Positions 13,783 through 34,890 of a DNA stretch of 44,452 bases are shown here, in pieces. The translations under genes were made by a program, and so were the position numbers. Positions within the stretch are counted from its first letter, which is position 1. Each line of letters opens with the position of its first letter. The stretch is from a virus. The stretch spans positions 1-44,452 of the IMG/VR virus record IMGVR_UViG_3300009151_000120; one strand, 5' to 3'. A model generated the notes under the pieces. The model was not told the origin of the DNA. It saw only the letters and a program-made list of their open reading frames with translations, and did not search any database.

Positions 13783-13794
13783 ATCTTTTTTCCT

Positions 13795-14091: not shown

Positions 14092-14092
14092 G

Positions 14093-15441: not shown

Positions 15442-15442
15442 T

Positions 15443-18252: not shown

Positions 18253-18276
18253 TTATGGTCTCTTTATTATTCTCTA

Positions 18277-18528
18277 TTATTTAGGTGCTTGTTCAGCAAC
18301 CTGTGCTTCATAGGCAGCGATGACTTCTGTAGTCCATGCAGCTGCAGCAATCGCTTGAACATTTGCTGGCATTGATGAAACATCGCTACCTGGAGCGAAT
18401 GACCAGCGATGATAGGAAGAAGATAATTGCTTACCATCTTCCATGATGCGTGTTATTTCACGAACTTGTAGAATACCATTTTCCACAATTTCGATTTTAT
18501 CAATTGCTTGTTCTTTTGTTAAACTCAT
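18277..18528 (-). CDS. small fibre-partner protein (83 aa)
   Basis: The start is set at ATG 18528 (MSLTKEQAIDKIEIVENG), preceded by AAGGA; an upstream ATG at 18558 lacks a good site. The body SSSYHRWSFAPGSDVSSMPA, then AAAWTTEVIAAYEAQVAEQ, is a pattern found in small proteins beside phage fibre genes. It lies between the 453-aa fibre, which has no S74 domain and is its likely client, and the 562-aa fibre, which has one. Predicted helical C-terminus. Function inferred only. Confidence 0.76.
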   Translation of the reverse strand: MSLTKEQAIDKIEIVENGILQVREITRIMEDGKQLSSSYHRWSFAPGSDVSSMPANVQAIAAAAWTTEVIAAYEAQVAEQAPK

Positions 18529-18549
18529 TTCATTTTCCTTTTGTGTCCG

Positions 18550-18569
18550 ACTAATCAATCCAGATTAGT
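18550..18569 (-). other. short intergenic stem-loop
   Basis: ACTAATC and GATTAGT form a perfect 7-bp stem with a six-base loop on either strand, in the gap between the 453-aa fibre and its partner gene. It is AT-rich and has no T tract, so a terminator is unlikely. It may modulate translation of the small gene or be chance. Confidence 0.35.
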
Positions 18570-18573
18570 TAAT

Positions 18574-19935: not shown

Positions 19936-19960
19936 TGATAGTCTCTTTAGGTTTCTTTAG

Positions 19961-19968
19961 TATTTATT
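19961..19968 (-). promoter_or_regulatory. late promoter-like AATAAATA
   Basis: One mismatch from TATAAATA on the minus strand, 26 bases above the 453-aa fibre start, the same spacing as at 7387-7394. It overlaps the last codons of the 51-aa gene. Base composition alone would give several such matches in the window, so support comes mainly from position. Confidence 0.4.
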
Positions 19969-20119
19969 CGTCGGCAGGAAGTGGTTCATTACCTTCTGCA
20001 ACCCATGCTAGGTATGCTTGGTAATCAGTGTTAGCTGGGTCAAATGGAATGGACATTTTTCCATCTAATACAACACAACATTCATTTCCCAAAAAATCTT
20101 TATATAATTTATATGTCAT
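19964..20119 (-). CDS. adhesin partner protein, DPxNRDY family (51 aa)
   Basis: A 51-codon frame read from the sequence: MTYKLYKDFLGNECCVVLDG at the start and GKMSIPFDPANTDYQAYLAW with VAEGNEPLPADE at the end. It is the most compact of the seven family members and keeps the full core. Its ATG lies one base after the stop of the 341-aa adhesin, with GGAG seven bases upstream. It carries an unusual adjacent Cys pair. Role inferred as partner of that adhesin. Confidence 0.85.
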   Translation of the reverse strand: MTYKLYKDFLGNECCVVLDGKMSIPFDPANTDYQAYLAWVAEGNEPLPADE

Positions 20120-20120
20120 T

Positions 20121-21146
20121 TTATAACTCCGCAGAACCAGCAAAATAATAACTACCTGAATTATCTACACAAAGGAGAGTTGCATATCCAGCATTAAAAT
20201 AACCAGTGCCGCTAACATTAACATCAATCATTGATGATAATAATCCAGCATAAGTTGTAGCTAAAGCATTCAATAATATTCCGTTCGCATTACTTTGCAA
20301 TATGTATAAATTTCCTGAAAAACTATAAGAAGGAGAAGCTCTCATTTGAACAGGATTTTGTATGTGAATTCTTGCTGTATAAGAATTATATGCCATTCCA
20401 GCTCCTACTGAAGGAATTCCATAACCACCAGTTGTTTTCCAATAATACCTCTGACACAAAGCCAACTCAGTACCGTAAGGACGATACTCAAAGGGTGTTG
20501 CGGTACTGCCTTTTTCTAGTTGTATTCCTGTAATTAAGAATGTTGCTGTTACCGAAGCAGACGGTATGAATAAAACAATTGACATTCCATTTGTAACATT
20601 AGAAGGTAATGTGTATGTAAATGTGTAACGAGTCCATGATGCAGGCATGGTGGCGACAACATTTGTTTCAACAATAGTTGTGCTAGATGTATAATTGTCC
20701 ACTGCAGTTGGATAAGCCAAATTAATATTAAGCGCACTAGAAGTACCAGAAGTTTGTTTTACATAAAATGAAACAGTTATTGCCTGACTAGCGCAGTCTG
20801 CAATATTGACAGACTCAATGCGTTGAGTAATTCCAGGATATGCGGTAGACGAAGCAGCATTGCTAAATGAATATGTAAATCCCGCTGGAACATCAGTAGA
20901 ACGTGTTATTGTTCCTGAAGATGCATTACCATAAAATCTATCGGCTGTATATGTTGAAACACCGCTACTTGTAAAAGAAGTGCCTCTCTGCCAAATTCCA
21001 ATCGCACCATTGATAAGGCGATTGCGCATTCCAAACTCTGCACCACTATTTGCCATCTTTGCTGGAGTGATACTTGTGTCTTGAATATCAGCAGTGCCAA
21101 CTGTACCATCGGCAAGAGCATTAGTACCTATTGTTGAGATTGCCAT
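20121..21146 (-). CDS. tail adhesin, ING motif plus CBM-like domain (341 aa)
   Basis: N-terminal module MAISTIGTNALADGTVGT, then DTSITPAKMANSGAEFG, is shared in part with the 390-aa twin upstream. The motif reads MRNRLINGAIGIWQRGTSFT...YTADRF; the body has QRIESVNIADC, ITVSFYVKQTSGT, LITGIQLEKGSTATPFEYR and YGTELALCQRYY, and the end is GSAEL. The preceding small gene supplies a GAGGAA ribosome-binding site through its last codons. Probable receptor-binding protein, ligand unknown. Confidence 0.82.
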   Translation of the reverse strand: MAISTIGTNALADGTVGTADIQDTSITPAKMANSGAEFGMRNRLINGAIGIWQRGTSFTSSGVSTYTADRFYGNASSGTITRSTDVPAGFTYSFSNAASSTAYPGITQRIESVNIADCASQAITVSFYVKQTSGTSSALNINLAYPTAVDNYTSSTTIVETNVVATMPASWTRYTFTYTLPSNVTNGMSIVLFIPSASVTATFLITGIQLEKGSTATPFEYRPYGTELALCQRYYWKTTGGYGIPSVGAGMAYNSYTARIHIQNPVQMRASPSYSFSGNLYILQSNANGILLNALATTYAGLLSSMIDVNVSGTGYFNAGYATLLCVDNSGSYYFAGSAEL

Positions 21147-21147
21147 A

Positions 21148-21342
21148 TTATTCCTCGTCCGCTGGTTCAGGATCGTTGCCTGCTTCGACCCATGTTAGGT
21201 ATGCTTGATAATCTTTACTATCTTCATTGAAGTACACATATGCGGTGTCTCTTAATCTGAGAACAGCATTTTTTTCCACTTTAAGTTCACCAACTTTATT
21301 TAAGTGGTTATCGTAATCATAATATCCTATTAATTTATACAT
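21148..21342 (-). CDS. adhesin partner protein, DPxNRDY family (64 aa)
   Basis: MYKLIGYYDYDNHLNKVGEL opens the protein and VYFNEDSKDYQAYLTW with VEAGNDPEPADEE closes it. The Pro-Asn pair of the usual core is replaced (NEDSKDY), the most diverged version of the motif among those keeping the W..xGN end. The ATG follows directly on the stop of the 390-aa adhesin. Its last codons contain the ribosome-binding site for the next adhesin gene. Confidence 0.82.
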   Translation of the reverse strand: MYKLIGYYDYDNHLNKVGELKVEKNAVLRLRDTAYVYFNEDSKDYQAYLTWVEAGNDPEPADEE

Positions 21343-22515
21343 TTATAACTCCGCATCAGCCGTATAGTGAACATAATTCCAAGCACTTGCTTGGCTGCCT
21401 GTTGGCCGCATAAAAAAACCACTATGACTTGTATTAAATGGTGTACCAGAACCCCACCAACTACCTCCATTAGAAATTCCTTGCGCTGAACCAGCACCAC
21501 CATATGTGTATGAATGTGTATTTGCTGTTCCTGCGCCATCCCAAATATTAATTGTTCCTGGAGTTGTTCTCATTTTAACAGGAAATTTAACATTTCCATA
21601 AGCACCACCAAGTCCAGAAGCACCTTGAAATCCAGCAACTTCCATTCCAACTTGTGTTGCTGTGCCTGGAACAACATTGTCGTTATAAGATTTTGAATAA
21701 TACCTCTGACATAGTACCAACTCAGCACCATATGAACGATACTCAAAAGGAGTTGCTGTTGGACCAGCTTCTAGTTGCATCTGAGAAACTTCGTAGTAGC
21801 TGCCAGTAGTTGATAGTCCACCAAAAGAAAAGAAAACCTGAGCACCATTGGCAACACCAGTTCTCGATGCCCAGCTGGTATCAGTCAAAGTAAAGTAGTA
21901 CCATGTATCTGCTGTTGTAAGTGTTAAAGTGCTGGCAGATGCAGTACCATTACCACTGATAGTATTATTTGCAGTGAAAATAGCACCGAGCGAATTATAG
22001 GATGCGTAGTTATCAAGAGCAGTTGGTGTAATTAAATTTAAAGAAACTGAAGAAGCAGCATTTCCTGTTCGTTTAATCCAACCACTTACAGTTATGGAAC
22101 CAGCGGCAAGTGCTGCTCTACCATTAACAGCCTCAACTCTTTGATCTAGATACGCAGAAGATCCACTTGTTTGTCCAGCAACACGCATTGAGTATGTAGA
22201 ATTACTATTCGGCACATTGGTACTTCTTGACCAAGATCCAGCAATGCTAGCATCAAAGTGACCACCCCAACGATCAGCATGACCATAAAGCCAAATACCA
22301 CCTGGATATGTGTAGGATGTTCCACGTTGCCAAATATCAAAGTTGCCATTGATAAACATATTGCGCATACCCAACTCTCTACCAGAGTTTGCCATCTTGG
22401 CTGGAGTAATACTGGCATCAGCATGTGAAGCAGTTGCCACTGCACTTGACGCAATCTTTGTAGTTGTTATTGCGCTATCGGCAAGTCCATTGGAACCAAG
22501 TTGTGTAACTGCCAT
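21343..22515 (-). CDS. tail adhesin, ING motif plus CBM-like domain (390 aa)
   Basis: N-terminal module MAVTQLGSNGLADSAITTTK, with DASITPAKMANSGRELG shared with the 341-aa twin. The motif reads MRNMFINGNFDIWQRGTSYT...HADRW, diverged at the ING.M position. The body has DQRVEAVNGRAALAAG, ITVSGWIKRTGNAAS, VSQMQLEAGPTATPFEYR and YGAELVLCQRYY; the Gly-rich tip ends TADAEL. The ATG overlaps the upstream partner's stop (TAATG), with GGAG in the preceding codons. Confidence 0.82.
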   Translation of the reverse strand: MAVTQLGSNGLADSAITTTKIASSAVATASHADASITPAKMANSGRELGMRNMFINGNFDIWQRGTSYTYPGGIWLYGHADRWGGHFDASIAGSWSRSTNVPNSNSTYSMRVAGQTSGSSAYLDQRVEAVNGRAALAAGSITVSGWIKRTGNAASSVSLNLITPTALDNYASYNSLGAIFTANNTISGNGTASASTLTLTTADTWYYFTLTDTSWASRTGVANGAQVFFSFGGLSTTGSYYEVSQMQLEAGPTATPFEYRSYGAELVLCQRYYSKSYNDNVVPGTATQVGMEVAGFQGASGLGGAYGNVKFPVKMRTTPGTINIWDGAGTANTHSYTYGGAGSAQGISNGGSWWGSGTPFNTSHSGFFMRPTGSQASAWNYVHYTADAEL

Positions 22516-22676
22516 TATTTCTCCGTATCTGCTGGGAGTGGTGTATTACCTTCAGCAAGCCATTTAAGGTATTCCCTATAATCTCTGTTATTATTGTCAA
22601 TAGGAATACAAGCATTGTCACTAAGTCTAATAATAACTAGAGACTTACCATTCCAAGGTGTTGATAATTTATACAT
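22515..22676 (-). CDS. adhesin partner protein, DPxNRDY family (53 aa)
   Basis: The start is set at ATG 22676 (MYKLSTPWNGKSLVIIRLSD), two bases after the adhesin stop; the longer frame to 22712 lies in the adhesin gene. The core IPIDNNNRDYREYLKWLAEG ends in NTPLPADTEK. Proteins of this family share the order MYKL, a short strand pair, I.R..D.A.IP, then the NRDY helix. It pairs with the 429-aa adhesin. Confidence 0.82.
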   Translation of the reverse strand: MYKLSTPWNGKSLVIIRLSDNACIPIDNNNRDYREYLKWLAEGNTPLPADTEK

Positions 22677-22678
22677 TT

Positions 22679-23968
22679 TTATAACTCCGCATCTGCAGCC
22701 GCAAAGCCCCAATAAAAAGCACCAGCAGTAAGACCCGTACTATCGAGTCTAGCAAATCCAGTATAACCAGCACCCCACGGTGTTGAAACTGTAACATCAG
22801 TATTACTTAAATTTGCCCACTTACCAGCACCAGTTCCATTCCAAGAATAATATTGTACTGTTGCTGATGTTCTCTTAGGTACTGAAAATTTCCAATGACA
22901 AGCAATGTTAGTAGTACTTGTTGCAACACCAGTTAATGCATTAGCTGTATTTGGATTAACTCTATTAGGTGCTTCATCATCTTGATATGTTTTTTCATAA
23001 TATCTCATACACAAAAGTTTTTCAGCACCATAAGGTCTGTAATCAAAGTTAGTTGCTGTTGCGCCTTTTTCTAACTGAAGACCAGTGATATAAAGAGAAT
23101 CATCTGCTCCAGCAGTACCTGTTGGGTTATAGAAAAATAATGTTGATAATTCTAAAGCAATTGAACTTAAATTAGCAGTTACAGTATATTTTGTCCAAGT
23201 TGTTGTTGGCGTAAAAGTATATGTAGCAGCAGAAGTGTATCCAGTCCAACTACCAAGAGAAGCTGCGGTTCCTTGATCAGCAACAGTTCCTGTATTAATG
23301 TATACACCAGTGCTTCCTGATGAAAAATTGGCACCTGCTTTTGCCCAGAATGTTAATGTTATTGTTTGACCTGCTAGATCAAGCATATTATTTGATTCAA
23401 TTATTTGTTGGAAAAATACAGCACTTGTTCCTGTGTTTGAAGCAGTGCGCTGTACTTGTGCGCTATATGGAAATCCAGTACCAGTTGGAATGCTTGAATT
23501 TCTTGATACCGTAGTTGAACTATTTGCAGAATATACAACCCAGCGATCTGCAGTATATGCAAAAGTAGAACCAGCGACAGTAAAACTAGTACCTCTTTGC
23601 CAAATACCCATACCACCATTCATAATACGATTCTTGAACCCATAGATATTACTTTGCATATCTGAGGTCAAAGAAGAATAGGAAACGCTGTTTGCGGCAG
23701 GAGCAACAACCTGAGTAGTTGTTGCCATATAACGAACATAGATATTGTTAGTTCCGCTCAGTGGAGCAGAAGTAAAGGTGATAACACTTCCGCTCAGTGT
23801 ATAAGCATCAGTTGGTCGTTGAACCACGTTATCAACAACAACCAAAATATCATTGATCGTGGCCACTGAACGTGACAGTGTAAACGCTGTAGCTGAACCT
23901 GTTCCACTGTAGTAATCTATATTGGAAGTAAAACTTTGCGAAGTTGGTGTATTACCAAGGTAAGCCAT
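22679..23968 (-). CDS. tail adhesin with YLGNTP N-terminal module and ING motif (429 aa)
   Basis: The first 120 residues (MAYLGNTPTSQSFTSNIDYY, AFTLSRSVATINDILVVVDN, VQRPTDAYTLSG) form a longer anchor related in plan to the YIGSSPT module of the 453- and 562-aa fibres, joined to the ING-type adhesin: FKNRIMNGGMGIWQRGTSFT...YTADRW, ITLTFWAKAGANF, ITGLQLEKGATATNFDYR, YGAEKLLCMRYY and a tip ending AADAEL. It is a natural chimera of the two fibre classes in this window. Partner gene follows after two bases. Confidence 0.84.
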   Translation of the reverse strand: MAYLGNTPTSQSFTSNIDYYSGTGSATAFTLSRSVATINDILVVVDNVVQRPTDAYTLSGSVITFTSAPLSGTNNIYVRYMATTTQVVAPAANSVSYSSLTSDMQSNIYGFKNRIMNGGMGIWQRGTSFTVAGSTFAYTADRWVVYSANSSTTVSRNSSIPTGTGFPYSAQVQRTASNTGTSAVFFQQIIESNNMLDLAGQTITLTFWAKAGANFSSGSTGVYINTGTVADQGTAASLGSWTGYTSAATYTFTPTTTWTKYTVTANLSSIALELSTLFFYNPTGTAGADDSLYITGLQLEKGATATNFDYRPYGAEKLLCMRYYEKTYQDDEAPNRVNPNTANALTGVATSTTNIACHWKFSVPKRTSATVQYYSWNGTGAGKWANLSNTDVTVSTPWGAGYTGFARLDSTGLTAGAFYWGFAAADAEL

Positions 23969-25171: not shown

Positions 25172-25870
25172 TTAGGTAACTGCAGTGGAGATTATATACT
25201 CTTCATAAGACTGAATGTACTCTCCAGTGTAGTTATCCATGGCTTTTTGTAATATTTCTTTAACTTTTTCGTCTCTTGTATCAACATAGAATCGAATCAT
25301 AATCATTGACATATCACCATAATTAAAGGCATTATGATAGTGATAACTGTTTAAACAGTACATCTTTCCAGGTTCATACCACTGCTCATATATTTTAATC
25401 GGTTTGTTGTAATCTGAACCTCTGTAATCCATGTAGGAAAGCACACTAAACTTAGATTCCTTGGGCATAATAAGTGGAAGATTCCAAACAGAGATCCACT
25501 CTGGTTGTCCCGCTTCCATAACATGACTGTGCCAGCCAGCAGATCCATTCTTGTTAAATATCTCAATTCTTCCAAGTAATTTACCACCACCGACAGAGTG
25601 TAAAACACTGTCCAAGTAAGGACACATATAAAGTGCTTCAGTTTTAATAAAGTCCCCTGTCCATGGTTCTGCAGGATTAGATTCAGATTTTCCGTCAATG
25701 CTATAAAGTGCCAACGAATCCCATCTTTCCTCATCATGAATTTCCATGGTTTTACCATTTGATAGTGCACTACGATATTTGCGTAGCGAATGAGGTAAAT
25801 TCTCTATCTCTGTTAGAATTTTTTTATGATCAAAATCTATACCAAGAGGAAGATGTGCAATATTATTCAA
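25172..25870 (-). CDS. putative AspH-type 2-oxoglutarate oxygenase, second copy (232 aa)
   Basis: Probable non-haem iron hydroxylase acting on protein residues, by resemblance to aspartyl/asparaginyl beta-hydroxylases. The core GGGKLLGRIEIF precedes GWHSHV (H114, H116), then WISVWNLPLIMP and YHYHNAFNYGDMSMIMIRF with H177/H179 and R193. AspH enzymes bind iron with two His and often lack the usual carboxylate, which fits. It starts with TTG at 25870 with AGGGAG six bases upstream; no ATG lies near. It overlaps the stop of its paralogue at 25863-26576. Assigned from motif pattern only. Confidence 0.62.
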   Translation of the reverse strand: MNNIAHLPLGIDFDHKKILTEIENLPHSLRKYRSALSNGKTMEIHDEERWDSLALYSIDGKSESNPAEPWTGDFIKTEALYMCPYLDSVLHSVGGGKLLGRIEIFNKNGSAGWHSHVMEAGQPEWISVWNLPLIMPKESKFSVLSYMDYRGSDYNKPIKIYEQWYEPGKMYCLNSYHYHNAFNYGDMSMIMIRFYVDTRDEKVKEILQKAMDNYTGEYIQSYEEYIISTAVT

Positions 25871-26576
25871 TGTAATCTCCCTTATAATTATTCACTGCAT
25901 CCTGTACTAAATCATATACTCTATCATCTCGTAGATCAGCAAAGAAACGAATCGTTAAACGAACACCTGTTTTGTCAAAGTTAAACACATTATGATAGTG
26001 ATGCGCATTAAAAATAACTGGTGTTCCTGGATTGTAAGTAGACTCATATACCTTTGGTGTATAAAGTCCAAAGTCCATTCCTCTGTAATCTTTGTTTGCC
26101 ATCACAGAGTATTTAAATTTTTGAGGTATAGTTATGGGCAACTGAACAATCATCATTGTTTCTGGATGAAACAATTCAAACACATGATTATGCCAACCCA
26201 TCACAGTTCCAGGAAGTATTTCTTCAATCCTTGCCAGTGCTTTACCACCACCAAGGTGTTCAAGAACCTCATAGGTATAGGGCATATACTCAGACAATCC
26301 AGTCTGTTGAACTTTGCCCCAAATTCTTTCTAGTTCTCCTGGACCAGCACCTTCTAAACGATCGCAAAAGATTTCACCATTGTAGCTGAACAGTGACAAG
26401 TTGTTCCACTTACTCTTTTCATGTCCATGATTTTCTTGCATGGTTGCTTCATAGGGCATAAGCGGAAAGGGACACTCACGAACTTCACGTTCAATTCTTT
26501 CTGCGTCATAGTTAAAATTTAATGGCAGATGGGGAATTCTATTTACGTGTTCAAGTAACTGTTGTATATTTCTCAT
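25863..26576 (-). CDS. putative AspH-type 2-oxoglutarate oxygenase, first copy (237 aa)
   Basis: Paralogue of the next gene, with the same order: HLPLNFNYDAERIEREV near the N-terminus, GGGKALARIEEI, GWHNHVFE (H129, H131), MMIVQLPITIP and HHYHNVFNFDKTGVRLTIRF (H192-H195, R206, R210). These match the two-His iron site and the arginine for 2-oxoglutarate in AspH-like enzymes; a third carboxylate ligand is not obvious. Oxygenases of this kind are frequent in T4-like marine phages. It overlaps the radical SAM gene upstream by 26 bases. The likely substrate is a phage or host protein, not shown. Confidence 0.62.
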   Translation of the reverse strand: MRNIQQLLEHVNRIPHLPLNFNYDAERIEREVRECPFPLMPYEATMQENHGHEKSKWNNLSLFSYNGEIFCDRLEGAGPGELERIWGKVQQTGLSEYMPYTYEVLEHLGGGKALARIEEILPGTVMGWHNHVFELFHPETMMIVQLPITIPQKFKYSVMANKDYRGMDFGLYTPKVYESTYNPGTPVIFNAHHYHNVFNFDKTGVRLTIRFFADLRDDRVYDLVQDAVNNYKGDYIE

Positions 26577-28443
26577 TAATAAAATTTTCGTAGTAGGTTC
26601 TTATCTGATAGGTCTTATCATACTTTGGAGAAATAGATTCTCTGTACTTATTTAGAACAGTTGTAAATTGTTCAACGATATCGTTTGGAATCTCAAGTCC
26701 CAACTCCTCACCGACTGAACAAAGAAAATCAATATATTCCTGTTCAAAAACATATATACAAGACTTGTAAATATATTTAAAATCCACTGATACTGTTGTA
26801 TTAGGTAGATTAAATTCTTTGTAGTCTGCAACTTCTTTTCTGTTTCCAGCAATTAAATCATACATCTGAGCATTTAAGTCTTGCATTGCCAACACATATT
26901 TATTTTCTGTTGGCTCACTTATCTTTTCGTAGATTTTCTTAAACACCAAAGATGGAGTTTTAAGTTTACCAGTATTTACATTATGCTTTATAATATCATC
27001 GGTAAAGGTAACTTCAACAATATTGTTCACGATCCAGTAATTCATAAAAAAGAACTCAGTAAAGTCTTTTCTTGTAAACCCATTGGCTTCAACAACAAAC
27101 TCAACATCTGAGGTAAAAGCTGGATCAGAGGAAATATGATAATCACCGAAAAGATTTACGTCATCAAAAGCATAACTATTCATTCTTGACTTACCGATAC
27201 ATATCTTTTCAGTTTTAATATTATGTTCTTTGATATAGTCAGGTGAGTAGGCAGGTGAGTCTGGTAGGAATAACCAAAGATATCTCTCAAGGTTATAACC
27301 ATACTCGTACTGTATATCTACTTCATCATAGAAGTCTTGTCTGGTATATCCAGGCAGTCCCATCATAAATTCAAAGTCAGAACGAATACCATAGGTATCA
27401 AACAGATACTGAGCAAACTCAAAGTCTTTTTCGCGAGGAATATCTGTTCGTTTAATATTCTTTAACACTTCATTGTTCAGTGTTTGTAAACTTAACTTGT
27501 ATCGCTCAACTACCTTTGCTCGTGCCAGTGGTTCAATGGTTGCCCAGCGTCTTTCTTGCTTGGACTTTGTCATTCCATATATCTCTACATGGTTTGGTAA
27601 ACCTGAATAATCTTTGATCGTTTCTATATATTTGGAAACATCCTCATCTTCCAGATATATTCCGTAATTTGCATCAAGAATTTGAACTTGCTCAATACCG
27701 ATCTGCGGTATCCAGTCTAGATCTTCCTTGATCATATCTAGTGGTTTACGAATAACCTTACCACCAATACCACCACCCCACTCGCAAAAGACACACTCAT
27801 AGGGACAACCACGAGTTAACTCAATTGGTAAAACCAAAGGTACATTTCTGTCAAGTGCTATGTTCTTGCACTCAAACAGTATATCTTCATTGCCAGCAAT
27901 TAAACTTGCAGGAAAGTCAAACCCAATCTTATTAGGACTTGTGCCACGTCCACTTTTATAGATCGCAAAGGAAACTTCTTTGTAGTTTATATCACCCTCT
28001 ACAAACTGATTCAAAATATCAGTAATGAACCACTCACCATAACTTGTAGGTTCGCAAATCGCATCGATAAACTTATTCTTAATGAACCATCCTAGATTAT
28101 TATGAGTAATATTAAGATGTGGACCACCAAGTAAAATAATTCTGTTTGGATTACGCTTTTTTAATTCTTGAGCAACTGCCATAATAGCCATGTGACTCCA
28201 GAGATAACTAGAGAAAGCATAGATGTCAGAATCCTGCTCGTCATAGTAAGTCACAATCTGTTCAAATGTCCAACCTTCTAGATTGAGAATTGGTTTCTGC
28301 CAAACTACTCGGTCTGAATATTTACCATGTTTCGTGTAGTAATTCTTAAAGTTCAACCAATTAATTGGTAACCTTTGAATCGGTACACGAAGATCAATAT
28401 TCAGGAACGAGAATTTGATGGATTCTTTGAGTTGCTTCGACAT
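26551..28443 (-). CDS. B12-type radical SAM enzyme (630 aa)
   Basis: The N-terminal domain (about residues 65-145) has the layout of cobalamin-binding class B radical SAM enzymes: DIYAFSSYLWSHMAIMAVAQ, RIILLGGPHLNITHN and ICEPTSYGEWFITD. The radical SAM core follows with GCPYECVFC (C213, C217, C220 as CX3CX2C) in the form LTRGCPYECVFCEWGGGIGG. Further core segments are EIYGMTKSK, KRTDIPREKDFEFAQYLF and GLPGYTRQDFYDE. The C-terminal 170 residues are without clear assignment. Enzymes of this class methylate or rearrange unreactive carbons. The typical DxHxxG cobalamin motif is not obvious, so B12 use is inferred. Confidence 0.82.
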   Translation of the reverse strand: MSKQLKESIKFSFLNIDLRVPIQRLPINWLNFKNYYTKHGKYSDRVVWQKPILNLEGWTFEQIVTYYDEQDSDIYAFSSYLWSHMAIMAVAQELKKRNPNRIILLGGPHLNITHNNLGWFIKNKFIDAICEPTSYGEWFITDILNQFVEGDINYKEVSFAIYKSGRGTSPNKIGFDFPASLIAGNEDILFECKNIALDRNVPLVLPIELTRGCPYECVFCEWGGGIGGKVIRKPLDMIKEDLDWIPQIGIEQVQILDANYGIYLEDEDVSKYIETIKDYSGLPNHVEIYGMTKSKQERRWATIEPLARAKVVERYKLSLQTLNNEVLKNIKRTDIPREKDFEFAQYLFDTYGIRSDFEFMMGLPGYTRQDFYDEVDIQYEYGYNLERYLWLFLPDSPAYSPDYIKEHNIKTEKICIGKSRMNSYAFDDVNLFGDYHISSDPAFTSDVEFVVEANGFTRKDFTEFFFMNYWIVNNIVEVTFTDDIIKHNVNTGKLKTPSLVFKKIYEKISEPTENKYVLAMQDLNAQMYDLIAGNRKEVADYKEFNLPNTTVSVDFKYIYKSCIYVFEQEYIDFLCSVGEELGLEIPNDIVEQFTTVLNKYRESISPKYDKTYQIRTYYENFINEKYTTVT

Positions 28444-29446
28444 AATCTATTTCACTGTTTATCTTAATAATTCTTGGAGCCAACTGCTTCATATGTGAGC
28501 AGTGCTCTTCAACCATATCATGTTTCTTTAAATCTTTAATTGTTTTCTTACACCCATTACAAATCGCAAACATTGGGCAACCAATACACTCATCTTTCAG
28601 CGAATATAATTCTGGAGCATCTTGAAGTGGAGTAGAGAAACCACCTTCTTTAACTTCCTTTACAAAGTTAATTGGATATTCTCTGTCATCACCCATAGAA
28701 CCACAGGAGTAGTAATCTCCCTCTGGGTTCAATGCTCTTATATGATCATCGCAGTTTCTTGCTTGAGGACAAACATTGGCAATGTTATTCAAACGACTCA
28801 TCATTTGTTTTGTATTAAATTCCCAGTGCCAAAGGTCTCTCTCATACACTTCTAGGTATGCTTCATATATCTTACTTAGGCGATATGGTTTATCCTGTTC
28901 GCCAGAAGCCATGGCATAGTTTAACTTACACTGAACATCCATTTTCTTGGCAAGTTCAACATGTTTAATTGCATGATGTTCATTCTCTTCAGAGATAACA
29001 GCAATAAACCCTGGACGATAACCAACTTCTTTGAGAAACAAATCACTGACTTTCCAAAAGTCGGCTTCAGTATAAACTCTGTTTTCATTAATCTTGCGAC
29101 CGAACCCATACTGAAAACTTGTAGTAACACCAACTCTTGGGTGTCTAAACAGCGGAGTCCACATCTCTGGTTTCTTGTAGAATGCCCAAAGGTTAGTTGT
29201 GAATCCAAGAGTTGTTGGGAGTTTGTGTTCTTCAATGTACGCAAGAATATTAAAGTAATACTCTGGTTTCATCATTAGTGGATCTCCACCATTGACAATT
29301 ATTGTATTTGTATTTGGAAATCTCTTTAGAAAATCAAAAACATGCTGTAAGTCAAGAGTGCTGGCACTATCTTCTACAAGTTTAGTTGATGAGCAAAAGG
29401 TACATTTAAAATTACAAAGTTCAGTTGGTTTAATTATTAATTCCAT
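28394..29446 (-). CDS. radical SAM/SPASM protein (350 aa)
   Basis: The 4Fe-4S motif is at the extreme N-terminus: TELCNFKCTFC (C11, C15, C18), followed by IIVNGGDPLMM. The C-terminal region is SPASM-like: CPQARNCDD, YYSCGSMGDD, then CIGCPMFAICNGCKK and a final EEHC. SPASM enzymes commonly modify peptides and proteins, as in PQQ and RiPP maturation, or sulfatases. Start and stop overlap neighbours (TAATG upstream, 50 bases downstream). It differs clearly from the SPASM enzyme at 32506-33582, so the island holds two separate maturases. Substrate unknown. Confidence 0.82.
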   Translation of the reverse strand: MELIIKPTELCNFKCTFCSSTKLVEDSASTLDLQHVFDFLKRFPNTNTIIVNGGDPLMMKPEYYFNILAYIEEHKLPTTLGFTTNLWAFYKKPEMWTPLFRHPRVGVTTSFQYGFGRKINENRVYTEADFWKVSDLFLKEVGYRPGFIAVISEENEHHAIKHVELAKKMDVQCKLNYAMASGEQDKPYRLSKIYEAYLEVYERDLWHWEFNTKQMMSRLNNIANVCPQARNCDDHIRALNPEGDYYSCGSMGDDREYPINFVKEVKEGGFSTPLQDAPELYSLKDECIGCPMFAICNGCKKTIKDLKKHDMVEEHCSHMKQLAPRIIKINSEIDYVEATQRIHQILVPEY

Positions 29447-30399
29447 TACACTTTATACTTTTTGAGCCATTCTATATTGTCTTGGTTCTTTAATATCGCA
29501 TTCCAGAAAATTGGATTCACAGAATCAAAGTTGGAAATGTTTGGAAAGATGAAGTTGTAATTTACCGCAATCTTTGGATCTAGGATTCGTTTCTCGATAA
29601 ACTGTTTCTTGCTCATCTTTAGTATAGGTTTTAAGAATTCCTCATAGTTTTCATCATTATTTAAAACAGTGAAGAAATGCTTATGATAATCATATCCAAA
29701 CTTATCATTGATGATTGGAACAATCTTGTTTGGAAGGAACTCGTTTACCTTAAATTGATCAAGGTATGTTTCCATATACTCGGTGTCCAATAAATGCTCG
29801 ATAGTATATTCTTCATCGGACATAATTCCAGGGAGAGTTTGCTCTGCAAACTTAGACCAGAATCCTGGACTGCCATCATACATTTGATCAATTCTGTCAA
29901 CACAAAATGCCAAAGACTTTTTGTTACCTTGAATCGCATTGGCAAATGCTATCTCAACTCTTTGAGTATCAAGATCAGCAGAGAACTTTGAAGAACCACT
30001 GGTCCAATTTAATTCTTCTGGCAAAGTAACACGATTAATATCTCTGAGCCCAGTTACAACCAGACCATATGTATCGGCAAGACCATAGTTTTCCTTGAGA
30101 GCATCGTATTGATACAACTCAAGAACAGTTGCCTTACTGAAAATACCATTGAAGAAAATAGAATATACATACTGGAAATAATCAACATCACAGTATATAA
30201 TAGTTTTCTTATCTGAGAAATTCTTATGAATATCTGCAAACAAGTCGTCTAATTTCTTTGGAGTAATATCGGTATATGTCTTGTAAATGTCAAGAGACTT
30301 CTCATCAAAATTCTCAAAAGAACCGATCCATACTTGTTTGGCAGTTTCAACTATTATGTTTTTTGTTGACAGATAACAGTTATCGAAAAGATATATCAT
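29446..30399 (-). CDS. unknown protein of the modification island, paralogue of 30396-31262 (317 aa)
   Basis: Not assigned to any family from sequence. It opens MIYLFDNCYLSTKNIIVE, matching the LF(N/D)xCY start of the upstream gene, and has TIIYCDVDYFQYVY (C70, D71, D73) where that protein has FLIYTDDDNFIKFF. Acidic, aromatic-rich, no membrane segments or signal peptide. The start overlaps the upstream stop as ATGA. Position between the CHSN protein and two radical SAM genes suggests a role in substrate handling or a scaffold, which is inference. A DxD-containing transferase is an alternative. Confidence 0.75.
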   Translation of the reverse strand: MIYLFDNCYLSTKNIIVETAKQVWIGSFENFDEKSLDIYKTYTDITPKKLDDLFADIHKNFSDKKTIIYCDVDYFQYVYSIFFNGIFSKATVLELYQYDALKENYGLADTYGLVVTGLRDINRVTLPEELNWTSGSSKFSADLDTQRVEIAFANAIQGNKKSLAFCVDRIDQMYDGSPGFWSKFAEQTLPGIMSDEEYTIEHLLDTEYMETYLDQFKVNEFLPNKIVPIINDKFGYDYHKHFFTVLNNDENYEEFLKPILKMSKKQFIEKRILDPKIAVNYNFIFPNISNFDSVNPIFWNAILKNQDNIEWLKKYKV

Positions 30400-31262
30400 G
30401 CTACTATGTCCAATTCTTTAATTTGTTCTTGAGACATTTTCATAAACCATCTAATCAACCAAAGGTCAATCTTATCACCCATGTCTTTATTGGATGCAAG
30501 TAGTAGTAAGAACTTTGGATCCTTAAACATTTCTCTATCGTAGTAGTACTGTAAAATTAGAGAATCCGTGAATATCATAATCTCTTTACGCATCTGCGAA
30601 TAAAGATCTTCAATAGATGCACAAGTTTTATATTTCTGATTGGTTTCTTCAAGAGCCCAGCCACCTTGTTTTCTGGAAAGATAAAGTGCCTTTGCTTCAT
30701 CAAAGTACGAGTACACATTACGATTAACAATGTCATGAATATTATCAAGAATACCATTGGCAAATTTCCACTCAATACCAGCATTGGCAGTGACCCATGC
30801 ACGTGTGAGTGAGAAAGCATCAACTTCTGGTATTGAAGTTAGTGCCAAGAATTTATCGGCAAGATTATTTAATTCTAGTTTTGCGTCATCAGTTGCAAGT
30901 AACTTTGCCCTTGTTTTTAATTTAACTGCAAACAACTTTGCCGTTGTAAGAAAGAAGTCTTCGCTCAAGTTTGCCACTTGAGTTTTCATTTTTGCCGTGA
31001 AGAATTTAATGAAATTATCATCATCGGTATAAATCAAAAATCTATCTTTGTTGTTGACAGTTGCATCTAGCAAGTTACATCCAGCAAAGGTTTCAAAAGA
31101 ATCTAATCTGGCAAAAGGTTCTCTTGGTGTAGAATTATTGTAGAAAAAACTATTTGAAATTATCTGATGATTCAGATGGTCTTCACCTACCACCAAATAA
31201 TTATTTGTTGGATCAAACAATATGTACGGATATACATAGCAAGAATTAAATAAGTGTAGCAT
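30396..31262 (-). CDS. unknown protein of the modification island, paralogue of 29446-30399 (288 aa)
   Basis: It starts MLHLFNSCYVYPYILFDP and contains IYTDDDNFIKFF at residues 78-88, both aligned in plan with the 317-aa neighbour. The middle is Lys/Ala/Leu-rich and helical (KLFAVKLKTRAKLL, KLELNNLADKFLAL); the C-terminus is KIDLWLIRWFMKMSQEQIKEL. No cofactor motif is recognisable. The gene overlaps the preceding one by 17 bases and the next by four. The conserved Cys8 and the DxD pair are the best candidates for functional residues. Confidence 0.75.
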   Translation of the reverse strand: MLHLFNSCYVYPYILFDPTNNYLVVGEDHLNHQIISNSFFYNNSTPREPFARLDSFETFAGCNLLDATVNNKDRFLIYTDDDNFIKFFTAKMKTQVANLSEDFFLTTAKLFAVKLKTRAKLLATDDAKLELNNLADKFLALTSIPEVDAFSLTRAWVTANAGIEWKFANGILDNIHDIVNRNVYSYFDEAKALYLSRKQGGWALEETNQKYKTCASIEDLYSQMRKEIMIFTDSLILQYYYDREMFKDPKFLLLLASNKDMGDKIDLWLIRWFMKMSQEQIKELDIVA

Positions 31263-32007
31263 CGGCTTCTTTGAATATTGAGTTTAATTGTTCAGGTGTA
31301 AATTTTACATCTATAATCATTTTCAATAGTGGAAATATAACACACTGTGGTACTGTTATGTAACTAATCAATGTTCTACCAGAGTAAATTGGTCTGTCAA
31401 AGTAATGGTCAAAATACTTGATGTCATCAAATTTAGGGATCGCTCCATAGTAGTGACAATTAAATGTTGGATTATCAAAGAAGTTTACAAAAGTTTTTCC
31501 AACTTCTTGTTTCTCTACAATAACATTGGTCGTTACAAAATCGCCAAGTTCTTCTTTGTAATCGTTTAGATTTTTAATTGCATACAAAAGAACACCATCA
31601 AGTAAATCTGCAAGTTGTTTAATTAATTTGATATCAATCTTAACGAACTCTTGTATTTCATCATTCGATAATATAGACTTGTGTAAAAATGGTTTGTCAT
31701 CTTCTGATTGGTCAACCAGAGATAACTCATATCCTCTGTAGTGAAACAGTGCTTTAATAACTGTTGCTTCCAACTGCTCAATGTGACAAGTTGAATTGTG
31801 TCTAATATACTCAGAAACTAATTCTATTCTTTCATCAAGCGATACATCTGAGAAATCGATATTAAGATTCTCATACTTGAGATTGCTGAGATATGTTATG
31901 AAGTTTTTACCCTTGATCTTTGATTGAACATAATCAATATCAGGAGAAGTTATTTCTCCAACTATAATTTTCTTCAAAGTATCAGAATCAAATGGTACAG
32001 TATACAT
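31246..32007 (-). CDS. unknown protein following the CHSN-tail gene (253 aa)
   Basis: The start is ATG 32007 (MYTVPFDSDTLKKIIVGEIT), sharing a base with the TGA of the CHSN-tail gene; a TTG three bases earlier is less likely. It has no recognisable domain. Visible segments are an acidic, helical N-terminal part (SLDERIELVSEYIRH), one CHIEQLEATVIKALFHYRGYE stretch split by a Cys-His, and a C-terminal part with FNCHYYGAIPKFDDI and YFDRPIYSGRTLISYI. Its strict coupling to the candidate substrate suggests a partner such as a recognition or carrier protein. This is inferred from position only. Confidence 0.72.
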   Translation of the reverse strand: MYTVPFDSDTLKKIIVGEITSPDIDYVQSKIKGKNFITYLSNLKYENLNIDFSDVSLDERIELVSEYIRHNSTCHIEQLEATVIKALFHYRGYELSLVDQSEDDKPFLHKSILSNDEIQEFVKIDIKLIKQLADLLDGVLLYAIKNLNDYKEELGDFVTTNVIVEKQEVGKTFVNFFDNPTFNCHYYGAIPKFDDIKYFDHYFDRPIYSGRTLISYITVPQCVIFPLLKMIIDVKFTPEQLNSIFKEADATLI

Positions 32008-32525
32008 CAAATACTTCCGTGGCAGTTACTATGGCAATTACTGTGGCAGTAGAATTCTTCAACTGTCACTGTTGTTTGTCTGTATGAACTAATGTTAGCT
32101 GACAGATAGTTTACAAAGGCATCAAGATTTCCAGCATTAACAGTTTCTCCAGAGTTAACGCTGTTATCAGCATTCCACTGGTAATTTGAATTTAAGTTTG
32201 TAAGATTTGTGGCATCGTAATCTAATCTATTTCTTACATCGCCTTGAATCTGATACCACTTCAATAAACGAACATTACGAATCCTCGATAGCAGGGTAGC
32301 ATAGGATCTAAAGTTATTTGTTATTGTAGATGCAGTTATGTTTGTGTCGGAAATATCACCAGCAAAAGATTGAGTAGAATATCCAGAAGTGGATCCACCA
32401 GTAATATCTGATTGAAATGGTTGAGCATTGCTACCCCAAACAATACCTGAGTTGTAGGTATTTCTAACTGCTTCCATTGAGGCAACGATGTTTGCCTTTG
32501 TTATATTAGTTCCAGCTGTTGTCAT
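32007..32525 (-). CDS. candidate radical SAM substrate: protein with C-terminal CHSN repeats (172 aa)
   Basis: The first 155 residues are Asn/Thr/Ser-rich and look like a phage structural protein (NITKANIVASMEAVRNTYNS, GIVWGSNAQPF, RLLKWYQIQGDVRNRL). The last 13 residues are CHSNCHSNCHGSI, with Cys at 160, 164 and 168. Such an appended Cys/His/Ser repeat beside a SPASM radical SAM gene recalls RiPP precursors and the His-Xaa-Ser (Hxs) system. The gene overlaps the enzyme's stop by 20 bases and has its own AAAGG ribosome-binding site eight bases before ATG. Alternative: the repeat binds a metal without modification. Confidence 0.82.
   Translation of the reverse strand: MTTAGTNITKANIVASMEAVRNTYNSGIVWGSNAQPFQSDITGGSTSGYSTQSFAGDISDTNITASTITNNFRSYATLLSRIRNVRLLKWYQIQGDVRNRLDYDATNLTNLNSNYQWNADNSVNSGETVNAGNLDAFVNYLSANISSYRQTTVTVEEFYCHSNCHSNCHGSI
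32010..32048 (-). repeat. C-terminal CHSN/CHSN/CHGS codon repeat
   Basis: Three 12-base units encode CHSN, CHSN and CHGS, followed by Ile-stop. His alternates CAC, CAT, CAC and Asn alternates AAT, AAC, while the amino acids hold. The DNA is therefore not a fresh exact duplication, and the protein pattern seems to be under selection. Confidence 0.85.
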
Positions 32526-33582
32526 GTTTTAACCTTTGCATTAGTGTTCTTGGTGCTGCACAAACATCGCCTTGCCAACTCAATTGGTGACAGTCGCTAT
32601 TACAGATGTCAAAAACATTACAGGTGTAACAACGAGGATCGCGAGCTACCTCACATGTAATATTATTTATTCTTCCTGGAGCACTTAATAAACTATTTAT
32701 AGACTGCCCAATATCCCCAAAACTGTTACCAACAGCGGAATTTGGGCAACCTGATATTGTTCCATCGCCATTGATTGTAAAGATCTTTTGCTCACAGTCT
32801 CTGCAACGAACACCACCATGAACACCTTTTAGGACAGAGGAATATACACCTTCCAACAAAACATCATGGTACTCTGGCTTTACTGATTGATAAGTTTCAT
32901 GCATTCTAAGAAACCAATCATCTATCTCTTTATTCTCGGGAAAGATGTCAGTGTTTATATTTGCGCTTCCATCATGGGTAAGTCGCTCAAACTGAACATA
33001 GTTTACACCAAGAGTGTTTAACCAAGTAACCAACTCAAGAGTATCCATTTTCATCAAGTCTTTGTTTAGACTAATGTTCAAAGTTATATTGTGACCAAGA
33101 TCAACAAGAGTTCTAAGGTTCTTTCTCCAAAGTGCTTCTTGTTTATCATTTTCAAAACGAATGTTCTTGTCCCAGCTGGTGCAGAAACCATTCTTTAATA
33201 CAGTTGAGAAGAATTTTAAATGTTCCTCTGTCAGTGCGAAACAGAGATTCGTTGAACATGACCAACCAAGATTTGGCCAAAGGGGTGATACTTCTTCCCA
33301 AACTTTATACATATCTTCAAGTGGTGCAAGAAAAGGTTCTCCACCATGAAATATAATTGCGCCTGATCCAAATGTTTCACATTCCGCATGGAGTTTGTGA
33401 AACCAGTCTATTGTTGCTTGGGGATTGAAGTAAACTTTTCTGCCGTTGACACCATTAGTGAAACAGTGTTTGCAGTTGAGTTGGCAAGTTTCAGTTGTCT
33501 TTAGATAGACTACTAAATCTTTTGGTTTGAGTATACTAGAGACAGCTGCTGTCTTATAGAATGTTATCGGCTGTACATGCAT
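32506..33582 (-). CDS. radical SAM/SPASM peptide-maturase-like enzyme (358 aa)
   Basis: The radical SAM motif is TCQLNCKHC (C33, C37, C40 as CX3CX2C), followed by IIFHGGEPFLAP. The C-terminal SPASM region holds CRDC (C260, C263), ISGCPNS (C279), C310 and CYTCNVFDICNSDC (C318-C331), the CX2CX5CX3C signature for auxiliary clusters. This is the architecture of anaerobic sulfatase-maturase and RiPP-maturase enzymes. The start is ATG 33582; TTG 33585 is the alternative. No Shine-Dalgarno is visible, so reinitiation after the fibre gene is likely. The next gene encodes the CHSN-tail protein, its probable substrate. Confidence 0.88.
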   Translation of the reverse strand: MHVQPITFYKTAAVSSILKPKDLVVYLKTTETCQLNCKHCFTNGVNGRKVYFNPQATIDWFHKLHAECETFGSGAIIFHGGEPFLAPLEDMYKVWEEVSPLWPNLGWSCSTNLCFALTEEHLKFFSTVLKNGFCTSWDKNIRFENDKQEALWRKNLRTLVDLGHNITLNISLNKDLMKMDTLELVTWLNTLGVNYVQFERLTHDGSANINTDIFPENKEIDDWFLRMHETYQSVKPEYHDVLLEGVYSSVLKGVHGGVRCRDCEQKIFTINGDGTISGCPNSAVGNSFGDIGQSINSLLSAPGRINNITCEVARDPRCYTCNVFDICNSDCHQLSWQGDVCAAPRTLMQRLKHDNSWN

Positions 33583-33591
33583 CAAAAAACA

Positions 33592-34890
33592 TTATAAAAT
33601 CACACATTCAATTAATTTAACAGTTTCAGTATCGCTGGATTCAAGAGCCACGCCAAACGCTCCATAGAAGTGATGTTCACATTGAACAGCAGTTCCATTA
33701 TCACCAGCAGTAATACTTTTGCCTTTGGTAATTGCTCCAACAACTTTAACTGGGACACGACCTTTTAGTGCTATCTTTGTTCCGTCTTTCAACTCATCAT
33801 TCATACAGTAAGCAGGAGCAGCAGAAACAACACCGATTGCTTTGTCTCCAAAGAAAGATTGAGTAACTTCTTTTTCGCCACCAACTACAATAACAGTTCC
33901 TGTTTCATAGGTATCGTCGGCAAGATATTTTTCTGCCAAGTCGGCATACTTAGCAGTAGAAGCTGTTCCAAAAATTGTTCCGAAACGATTTCCGTCTTGG
34001 CCAATATCACCTGAACCATTACCACCAGATTTTGAAATAGATGGAAGTGTAACAGCGCCAGAGAAAGTTCCTGTTGTTCCAACAGTTAAACCAGCATTAA
34101 GTTGTAGAGATGAAAGTGTTACTGAACCAGAACTAGGTAAGTCAACTGAAATATTACCACCGACTCCGCTGCCATTTGTAACAACTATACCATTTCCATT
34201 AGTAACTACTGATCTTTGTGTAACTGAAGCAGCACCAATACGAACATAGATACCAGTGTTAGTTGCTGCTGCGATACCTGTTAATTCGTTTGAGAAAGGC
34301 TGAACATCAGTACCAATGGCAAGACCAAGGTTTGTTCTTACTGCAGTTGCTGATGTTGCGCCTGTACCGCCAGATGCAATTGGTAATGCAGTTGTTAAAC
34401 CAGTAATAGTTCCACCGACAATAGTAACACCAGAATTATTCTGAGTTGCCATTGATCCAAGTCCAAGGTTTGAGCGAGCAGAAGTTGCATCACTACCACC
34501 AGTGCCACCATTATTAATAGCAACAGTGCCAGAAACATTGGTTGCATTTCCAGTAAGAGTTCCTGTTACATTACCTGTGACATTACCTGTTACATTGGCA
34601 ATTACTGTTGTGGCACGAACCACTCCTGCGGCAATATCTGTATTGGCATCTCTAAGAACAATTGTGTTTGCCGTTGCAGTTGTTGCTGAATTATAACCAT
34701 CCAACAAATCTGCATCTAAACCAGAACCAACTCCGTCAACTGTTTTAAGTTTCGTTAGCACATCGGCTGCGGTATATGACGCTGCAGGTAAAGTAAGATT
34801 TAATTGAGCATTGATATTATTAAGGTTGTCGTCCATCTCTTGATTGGTAAGAGGACTTCCTTTAACAGTGCGTAGCGTGATAGATGCCAT
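33592..34890 (-). CDS. tail fibre-like protein with conserved C-terminal module (432 aa)
   Basis: N-terminal motif TVKGSPLTNQEMDDNLNNI is shared with the S74 short fibre at 24514-25140. Then LTKLKTVDGVGSGLDADLLD, a TGNVTGNVTGTLTGNATNVS shaft and repeats such as GGTGATSATAVRTNLGLA. The C-terminal 120 residues (313-432, opening AKYADLAEKYLADDTYETG) form a module recurrent in marine T4-like fibres; its AKYADLAE start resembles G2-type intramolecular chaperones, though this is not certain. The ATG overlaps the upstream stop (TAATG). The modification island begins nine bases after its stop. Confidence 0.84.
   Translation of the reverse strand: MASITLRTVKGSPLTNQEMDDNLNNINAQLNLTLPAASYTAADVLTKLKTVDGVGSGLDADLLDGYNSATTATANTIVLRDANTDIAAGVVRATTVIANVTGNVTGNVTGTLTGNATNVSGTVAINNGGTGGSDATSARSNLGLGSMATQNNSGVTIVGGTITGLTTALPIASGGTGATSATAVRTNLGLAIGTDVQPFSNELTGIAAATNTGIYVRIGAASVTQRSVVTNGNGIVVTNGSGVGGNISVDLPSSGSVTLSSLQLNAGLTVGTTGTFSGAVTLPSISKSGGNGSGDIGQDGNRFGTIFGTASTAKYADLAEKYLADDTYETGTVIVVGGEKEVTQSFFGDKAIGVVSAAPAYCMNDELKDGTKIALKGRVPVKVVGAITKGKSITAGDNGTAVQCEHHFYGAFGVALESSDTETVKLIECVIL

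Follow-up and report, generated by a model that had tools for sequence, protein, structure and literature searches.

Radical SAM enzymes paired with a fibre-linked phage protein ending in a Cys-His repeat, its probable site of modification

To date, several systems have been described in which radical SAM enzymes are encoded next to a peptide or protein with a repeated or short target motif. In the bacterial His-Xaa-Ser (Hxs) system, HxsA holds repeated His-x-Ser units, contiguous and with a period of three residues, and lies beside two radical SAM enzymes, HxsB and HxsC. In the three-residue cyclophane RiPPs (FxsB, YhhB and kin), a SPASM enzyme joins the aromatic ring of the first residue to the beta-carbon of the third, whereas dynobactin, matured by DynA, contains a His to beta-carbon bond over a three-residue His-x-x unit; DarE is the corresponding darobactin maturase. 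In phages, clusters of several radical SAM genes, in some cases near structural or host-recognition genes, have been noted in CP220/CPt10, 332-Vera, RP12/RP31, FLC6, S13 and the pelagimyophages (PMC2853527, PMC12390700, PMC5468394, PMC8066314, PMC11898562, PMC7029224). Such large sets were called "highly unusual" in 2010 and again in 2025 (PMC2853527, PMC12390700), but the parts of these works that were consulted propose either metabolism (CP220) or no role, and none names a substrate. The main text of an overview of jumbo phages does not contain the term "radical SAM" (PMC7824862).

The locus studied here lies in a viral stretch of 44,452 nucleotides (IMG/VR record IMGVR_UViG_3300009151_000120), hereafter the window. 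The initial annotation reported a complete SPASM-type maturase overlapping by 20 bases a 172-aa protein that ends in a Cys/His repeat, within a tail-fibre operon. These observations have been confirmed, including the genomic context, as the gene before the enzyme matches tail-fibre PHROGs. The enzyme (rSAM-A) and the 172-aa protein (S), which ends FYCHSNCHSNCHGSI, overlap at 32506-32525. The features of the region are collected in the table.

Table. Features of the rSAM-A/S region, in window coordinates
Coordinates	Strand	Feature	Basis
32506..33582	-	rSAM-A: radical SAM/SPASM enzyme, 358 aa from ATG (ORF 32506-33585 opens with TTG at 33585, one codon earlier, giving 359 aa)	phrog_1802, E 2.1e-55; invariant Cys
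32007..32525	-	S: 172-aa protein with predicted folded body and Cys-His repeat tail, probable substrate	end matches phrog_35144, function unknown, E 0.0013
32010..32048	-	C-terminal tail of S, residues 160-172, CHSNCHSNCHGSI: probable modification site	median pairwise identity 0.77 against 0.23 for the body; pLDDT 47-56 for residues 161-172
31246..32007	-	protein C: conserved partner of unknown function, helical	phrog_20767; in all 44 long-flank loci
30396..31262	-	D-protein copy 1, unknown function	profile
29446..30399	-	D-protein copy 2, unknown function	profile
28394..29446	-	rSAM-B: second radical SAM enzyme (CNFKCTFCSST core)	in 43 of 44 long-flank loci
26551..28443	-	B12-binding-type radical SAM protein, KedN5-like (possible C-methyltransferase)	E 5.6e-35, 120.6 bits, below the 700-bit cut-off; such a gene in 23 of 44 loci
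25863..26576	-	possible Asp/Asn hydroxylase-like 2OG oxygenase (weak)	PF05118, E 4.6e-4, 20.5 bits, below the 22.6 cut-off
25172..25870	-	paralogue of the previous gene	same cluster
33592..34890	-	tail-fibre protein with an end domain shared by the fibre genes of other cassettes	phrog_22593, 19602, 6427; the same three in loci L001 and L087

The cysteines of rSAM-A expected for a radical SAM/SPASM enzyme are intact, which rules out a decayed gene. The core motif C34-x3-C38-x2-C41, together with C261, C264, C280, C319-x2-C322-x5-C328-x3-C332 and C342, is invariant in the six enzymes aligned (the window plus five phage isolates), and C264-x10-G275-x4-C280, followed by the CX2CX5CX3C set and C342, agrees with the SPASM signature (C-x9-15-G-x4-C, CX2CX5CX3C, then C). 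The Pfam profile PF04055 scored 18.9 bits, below its cut-off of 29.5, and the SPASM profile TIGR04085 scored 21.6 bits against a cut-off of 27. The best NCBIfam matches of rSAM-A are DynA (32.9 bits) and DarE (32.1 bits), far below the cut-offs of 450 and 650 bits, and DynA is also the best match of rSAM-B (53.9 bits); unlike in those pathways, no short precursor is present. With respect to the cyclophane maturases, rSAM-A scores 18.7 bits for FxsB and 21.7 for YhhB, against cut-offs of 370 and 445, although an aromatic-x-x3 unit, with x3 having a plain beta-carbon, is shared.

The initial annotation proposed a maturase and precursor pair recalling the Hxs system, with a body instead of a short leader. 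This interpretation has been partly supported. Membership of the Hxs family has been rejected: the profiles of HxsB (TIGR03978) and HxsA (TIGR03979) give no match at E 1 in the window, rSAM-B scores 30.7 bits for HxsC (TIGR03977) against a cut-off of 267.9, and the repeat has a period of four residues and contains Cys. Two contiguous His-x-Ser units were only found in three of the rSAM-A loci collected (L038, L042 and L043). Moreover, the locus compared here is fibre-linked and occurs in phages. On the contrary, the reading as a maturase-substrate pair is supported, and the predicted structure agrees with the idea of a body in place of a leader. S proteins are 124-364 aa long, which differs from a short RiPP precursor of leader plus core, and in the predicted structure the body is confident while the exposed tail is disordered.

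Two conditions named beforehand as able to disprove the pairing, an intact enzyme next to a homologue without the repeat and a repeat without any radical SAM gene, were examined by computation, and both outcomes favoured it. Of the nearest 80 of 361 rSAM-A loci, the other 281 being outside this count, 67 have a tail-bearing S gene and the remaining 13 are cut by contig ends. A search for the tail at the DNA level gave 120 stretches, of which 112 have rSAM-A on the same contig, while the other eight contigs are short (5.6-38.7 kb). When window-type bodies were searched without the tail, 27 were found, and all 27 were on contigs already known for rSAM-A. The five isolate loci read all have S, and a sixth isolate, FLC8, shows a 23-aa match (E 4) to the tail end just after its rSAM-A. 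FLC6 and S13 carry S, as does the Sinorhizobium phage Phosso, which has a symbiont host. The link does not depend on operon adjacency, since in one group S and rSAM-A lie about 10-12 kb apart on opposite strands and are convergent. However, in a second rSAM-A scan only 9 of 80 loci show S in the flanks retrieved, and of 13 long records of that group not previously known to hold S, five lack it, their contigs ending 1.2-10.9 kb past rSAM-A. In addition, no S could be detected in one bacterial bin with rSAM-A (L212).

A chance motif has been excluded, as the reversed pattern, used as a control, gave no matches in 22 records and none in four genomes. The Cys and His codons of the tail vary freely between synonyms (TGT 280/TGC 245, CAT 285/CAC 240), and 155 distinct DNA versions of the first 30 bases encode 45 peptides, so selection acts on the peptide. 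S bodies diverge while tails do not, as shown by their median pairwise identities, and the body is nearly free of Cys (134 of 185 proteins with none, five of the 185 being chance pattern matches, which were dropped before the 180-protein count). The tail consists of Cys-His-x2-x3 units. Among 539 units, x3 is Ser in 455, Asn in 62, Ala in 16, Gln in 3, Arg in 2 and Lys in 1, never Gly and never a beta-branched residue, whereas x2 is Gly 117 times and Thr 81 times, which is what a bond to an unbranched beta-carbon would demand. Nevertheless, the proteins are related, so the units are not independent, and a preference for small residues could also serve a tight metal site. In three loci (two of them identical here) the third Cys is lost but its His-x-Ser is kept. 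The window's clade lacks the RGRR end found elsewhere.

An alternative, considered unlikely, is that the tail is an unmodified metal site, in which Cys and His of several S copies at a fibre tip bind Zn or Fe, as in the HxH iron sites of the T4 gp37 fibre tip, while the radical SAM enzymes modify something else in the tail. The invariance of Cys and His and the proximity to fibre genes agree with this view. However, the tail co-occurs with rSAM-A, even at a distance and on the opposite strand, and a pure metal site does not explain why x3 avoids Gly, Thr and Val while x2 accepts Gly and Thr.

It is even less likely that rSAM-A is an oxidase similar to the anaerobic sulfatase maturases (AnSME), turning Ser or Cys of the tail into formylglycine and giving a reactive aldehyde at the fibre end. 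AnSME is among the nearest solved relatives by sequence (4k37, E 2.5e-7; the best is 8vpo_A, E 2.9e-8), and most tails end C-H-x-S-R, which recalls the sulfatase motif C/S-x-P/A-x-R. Contrary to this, Pro never occurs at the third position of the motif (x2) and Ala does so in 58 of 539 units, the window clade has Ile or Leu instead of Arg, and the score for TIGR03942 is 19.3 bits against a cut-off of 349.45. Neither does this reaction explain three or more repeats.

The pair is not isolated, a feature missed in the initial annotation, but is part of a larger cassette comprising S, rSAM-A, rSAM-B and protein C, often with more radical SAM enzymes, a cupin and a B12-radical SAM protein, near tail-fibre genes. 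The cassette counts cover 44 long-flank loci, after removal from 45 of one row (L221) that corresponded to a weak, unrelated radical SAM protein. Among 50,697 phage records, rSAM-A and rSAM-B occur in exactly the same seven. No Campylobacter phage is among these, in a collection in which the presence of CP220 was not established. The cassette has been found in several jumbo phages and in bacterial bins of predator families, with relatives in Bacteriovoracaceae-type bins beside proteins with a phage-fibre chaperone domain. A scan of viral contigs with a Bacteriovoracaceae rSAM-A found no relative. Many phages, and probably some predatory bacteria, carry a fibre-linked protein ending in a Cys-His repeat together with a set of radical enzymes that probably remodel that end chemically.

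Linked inheritance alone, with S and the radical SAM genes travelling as one host-recognition module without acting on each other, appears the least likely of the alternatives. Host-recognition clusters do differ between phages by added gene cassettes, radical SAM ones among them (PMC7029224). However, S bodies diverge while the tail stays fixed, the linkage survives different gene orders, and the co-occurrence extends to bacterial bins.

According to these data, it is proposed with reasonable confidence that S is a fibre-associated phage protein, probably at or near the distal end of the fibre encoded next to it, with a folded body and an exposed C-terminal tail. Before or during assembly in the infected cell, rSAM-A, together with the other enzymes of the cassette, would modify the Cys-His-x2-x3 units. 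The most likely reaction would be the formation of a bond from the His ring or the Cys sulphur to the beta-carbon of x3 (Ser, Asn or Ala), giving a rigid cross-linked tip that would then serve host (or prey) attachment. In this view, the body takes the place of a RiPP leader and the product stays on the protein. The gene pairing, the pattern of conservation, the cassette and the fibre neighbourhood rest directly on the sequence analysis, and the gene link is strongly supported. In contrast, that rSAM-A acts on this tail is a likely inference, the modification itself and its bond type are inferred without direct evidence, the latter remaining open, and the presence of S in virions and its role in attachment are plausible inferences, also without direct evidence. 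Since several radical SAM enzymes share the cassette, and rSAM-B is almost as constant as rSAM-A, which of them acts on S is not proved. A more speculative possibility, held only tentatively, is that a phage-borne assembly line of several radical SAM enzymes, the B12-radical SAM protein, the cupin and 2OG oxygenases builds a covalently remodelled Cys/His tip on a receptor-binding fibre, a RiPP-like chemical group carried on the virion. This tip may bind metal and thus dock on metal-uptake receptors of the host, while predatory bacteria would use the same line for adhesive surface fibres.

For the phages studied here, a likely, conserved substrate is now named that is testable on isolated phages. 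If the proposal is right, radical chemistry on the host-recognition part of a virion would be an unusual kind of maturation and a new use of RiPP-type enzymes, a new way for fibres to gain binding chemistry beyond the 20 amino acids, and a link between phage fibres and the surface fibres of predatory bacteria.

The assignment of S to the fibre is inferred from its genomic context. The T-even fibre-tip adhesin gp38 is also a small protein encoded directly next to the distal fibre gene, although maturation enzymes are not known there. A large gene lies directly upstream of S in L087, L160 and L192, and the one in L087, the only one of the three scanned, matches the same three tail-fibre profiles as the fibres of the window and L001. 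Virion proteomics exist for Atu_ph07 (PMC6102473), with 131 virion proteins, and for RP31 (PMC5468394); the S protein of Atu_ph07 is gp170.

Regarding folds and families, no PDB match was found for protein C by sequence or fold, nor for S by fold (Foldseek best E 0.55; best Z 2.7 in a second comparison). NCBIfam gave nothing for S, and Pfam only a match below cut-off, while phrog_35144 matches the window S and, at E 0.01, 8 of 10 other S proteins. The six BFVD matches of S with E 0.0024 or better are an uncultured phage protein (60% identical), a 178-aa entry, a 296-aa protein of Atu_ph07 and three proteins of 504-660 aa from "Myoviridae sp. ctijX18". Finally, a 257-aa S variant weakly matches a baseplate-wedge profile (phrog_708, E 8e-4).

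The enzyme encoded in the window, designated rSAM-A, exhibits the CX3CX2C core and the full SPASM set of Cys residues, which are invariant in the six enzymes aligned. It is encoded together with S, a protein of 172 aa that ends in FYCHSNCHSNCHGSI, and the gene preceding the enzyme matches tail-fibre profiles. After S come genes for protein C, two related D-proteins, a second SPASM-like enzyme (rSAM-B), a B12-type rSAM, and two 2OG-oxygenase-like proteins with only weak matches. The initial annotation, which described a complete SPASM-type maturase followed by a protein ending in a Cys/His repeat, was confirmed in its observation. The coordinates of these genes, and of other features of the window and of related loci (numbered L001 onwards), are collected in the table.

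Coordinates of the features in the window and in related loci
Sequence	Position	Strand	Feature
Window	32506-33582	minus	rSAM-A
Window	32007-32525	minus	S
Window	33592-34890		Gene before rSAM-A, matching tail-fibre profiles
Window	7627-23968		Seven paralogous fibre-like proteins
L213	965-2056		Protein with type-IV-pilin-like start and Peptidase_S74 domain
L217	3708-4742		Protein with type-IV-pilin-like start and Peptidase_S74 domain
L003	14394-15571		Annotated dihydrofolate reductase
L004	14310-15523		Annotated dihydrofolate reductase
L046	11135-11689		S with five Cys-His units
L136	8045-8815		257-aa S variant

A tblastn search with rSAM-A in 50,697 phage records returned 7 records from six phages, namely Phosso, Atu_ph07 (twice), SURPRISE13, FLC6, FLC8, and DT01. 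In the five loci that were read, the next gene ends in CHxSCHxSCHxSR(G/S)RR, with one x3 Ala in DT01, while for FLC8 the evidence is limited to a 23-aa tblastn match (E 4) located just after its rSAM-A. In IMG/VR, 361 stretches encode a relative, and among the nearest 80 of them, which were the only ones inspected, 67 have an S gene on the same strand, whereas the other 13 are contigs that end inside rSAM-A or before the end of S. In addition, a search with window-type S bodies deprived of the tail yielded 27 relatives, all of them on contigs already known for rSAM-A.

The reverse test was carried out with a DNA pattern for CHxxCHxxCHxxRGRR-stop, which is blind to the enzyme and, as it demands RGRR, leaves out the window's own clade. 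At least 120 stretches were recovered, and in all 120 the pattern sits in frame at the end of an open frame, 10 of which run into the edge of the stretch. rSAM-A lies in the retrieved stretch in 81 of them (150 bits or more) and elsewhere on the contig in 31 more, which makes 112 of 120. The 8 without rSAM-A are contigs of 5.6 to 38.7 kb, one of which (L107) begins inside what looks like the end of rSAM-A. As some contigs occur in both scans, the two counts are not fully independent.

Some results looked contrary to this pairing. A second rSAM-A scan, led by a relative with tandem S genes, was restricted to 80 of 167 relatives, and only 9 of these 80 have S within flanks of at most 10 kb. However, some members of this group have S about 5 kb upstream (L264, L265, L266, and L279), and others about 10-12 kb downstream on the opposite strand. 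Of 22 whole records checked, 17 hold S, with 0 control matches; nine of the 22 were known beforehand to hold S, and 8 of the 13 others do. In the 5 that do not, the contig ends 1.2 to about 10.9 kb downstream of rSAM-A, before or about where relatives have S. So the link does not depend on one operon, which argues against mere hitch-hiking. L087, L111, L120, L141, L160, L192, and others hold two tandem S genes of about 124-140 aa, similar to each other, and a 151-kb record (that of L152/L328) carries two rSAM-A genes and three S genes in one contig, that is, two cassettes of different type in one virus. In L039, L071, L083, and L170, a second, diverged rSAM-A-like enzyme lies a few kb downstream of the first, with S between them.

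Relatives have also been found in bacterial bins. The scan of GTDB gave 23 loci, 14 of them strong (L207-L220, from 12 bins), and in 10 of the 14 S is in the locus, 7 with the usual tail and 3 with CHGNFPPPCHGSRGRR. The genome of L220 has the FPPP form, and the genomes of L214 and L219 have S outside the retrieved stretch, while no S could be detected in that of L212. At genome level, S is thus present for 13 of 14 loci, or 11 of 12 bins, although several of these bins (a rickettsial, an archaeal, a Bacteroidetes, and a Rhodobacteraceae one) may simply hold phage contigs. In L213 (Bacteriovoracaceae) and L217 (Halobacteriovoraceae), bins of predator families, a gene beside the rSAM/S cassette encodes a protein with a Peptidase_S74 fibre chaperone domain. 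The L213 copy also has a pilin-type start, with N_methyl below its cut-off, whereas that of L217 only looks like one. These proteins are possible surface fibres for prey recognition. Other neighbours in L217 are clostripain and transglutaminase-elicitor proteins, which points to a bacterial chromosome but does not prove it. The chimeric fibres of B. bacteriovorus called MAT proteins (PMC10769870) are a functional parallel only.

The composition of the cassette was examined in 44 loci with at least 7 kb and 8 kb of flank, after one spurious row had been dropped; this set holds near-duplicates, such as the window and L007, or L042 and L043. rSAM-A, protein C, and S are found in all 44, rSAM-B in 43, a third rSAM in 35, a cupin in 30, a fourth rSAM in 29, a D-protein in 26, a B12-rSAM in 23, a small protein in 23, a fifth rSAM type in 11, and a 2OG gene in 8. 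Moreover, rSAM-A and rSAM-B occur in exactly the same 7 phage records. In the Burkholderia phages (L003 and L004), two genes annotated as dihydrofolate reductase lie inside the rSAM cassette, directly before rSAM-B.

In an alignment of 89 S proteins, median pairwise identity is 0.23 in the body and 0.77 in the tail, where C1 and H1 are conserved in 89/89, C2 and H2 in 86/89, C3 in 88/89, and H3 in 89/89. The repeat number varies, with five Cys-His units in the S of L046 (CHCSCHSSCHSSCHSSCHSSRARR). In 180 proteins, which contain 539 H-x2-x3 units, x3 is S in 455, N in 62, A in 16, Q in 3, R in 2, and K in 1, while x2 is S in 225, G in 117, T in 81, A in 58, and others. Hence, x3 is never Gly or beta-branched, though x2 often is. 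This is what a bond to an unbranched beta-carbon of x3 would require, whether from His, as in three-residue cyclophanes or the His bond of dynobactin, or from Cys, as in thioether ranthipeptides. Small x3 residues could also suit a metal site, and the proteins are related, so that the counts are not independent trials. Three loci, two of them alike, lose the third Cys but keep its His-x-Ser, which leans to His.

The AlphaFold2 model of S, built with 89 sequences, reached a pLDDT of 84 and a pTM of 0.78, with a well-predicted body and residues 161-172 at 47-56. The predicted body consists of helices and a long hairpin, with a strand leading into the tail, and no fold match was found in the PDB. 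Protein C (pLDDT 90.9) is predicted to be mostly helical, and no match was found for it either.

Among open-access articles, subscription papers and preprints outside that library not being covered, no title, abstract opening or consulted passage was found to name a substrate for phage rSAM clusters. What has been noted is the presence of 11 and 12 rSAM proteins in CP220 and CPt10, thought to be metabolic (PMC2853527), of eight inside a structural cluster of 332-Vera (PMC12390700), and of rSAM cassettes in the host-recognition cluster of pelagimyophages (PMC7029224), while for RP12/RP31, FLC6, and S13 the genes are only listed (PMC5468394, PMC8066314, PMC11898562).

According to these data, the interpretation of the initial annotation, a RiPP-like maturase and its substrate recalling the His-Xaa-Ser (Hxs) system, is partly supported. 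The enzyme-substrate link is strongly supported by comparison, and the system would work like a RiPP maturase system, but it is not a member of the Hxs family or of any named maturase family tested. The chemistry and the role, in contrast, are inferred. In the probable mechanism, S would replace the short leader of a RiPP by a folded body and keep its modified tail; rSAM-A, perhaps with rSAM-B and protein C, would make the bond, and accessory oxygenases and the B12 enzyme may add further groups in some phages.

A role of S at the fibre end, in attachment, is the best guess, though unproved. A large gene directly precedes S (the tandem pair) in L087, L160, and L192 (2820 aa in L192), and a fibre gene lies one or two genes earlier in the window and L001. 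Among the genes scanned, the same three end-domain profiles appear in those of the window, L001, and L087. The body (59-196) of the S variant of L136 weakly matches phrog_708, a baseplate wedge subunit (E 8e-4). The seven paralogous fibre-like proteins of the window show 'NGDMRIDQR/NGAMTFWQRG'-type stretches and ends in AEL or SEL, and look like a repertoire of receptor-binding tips.
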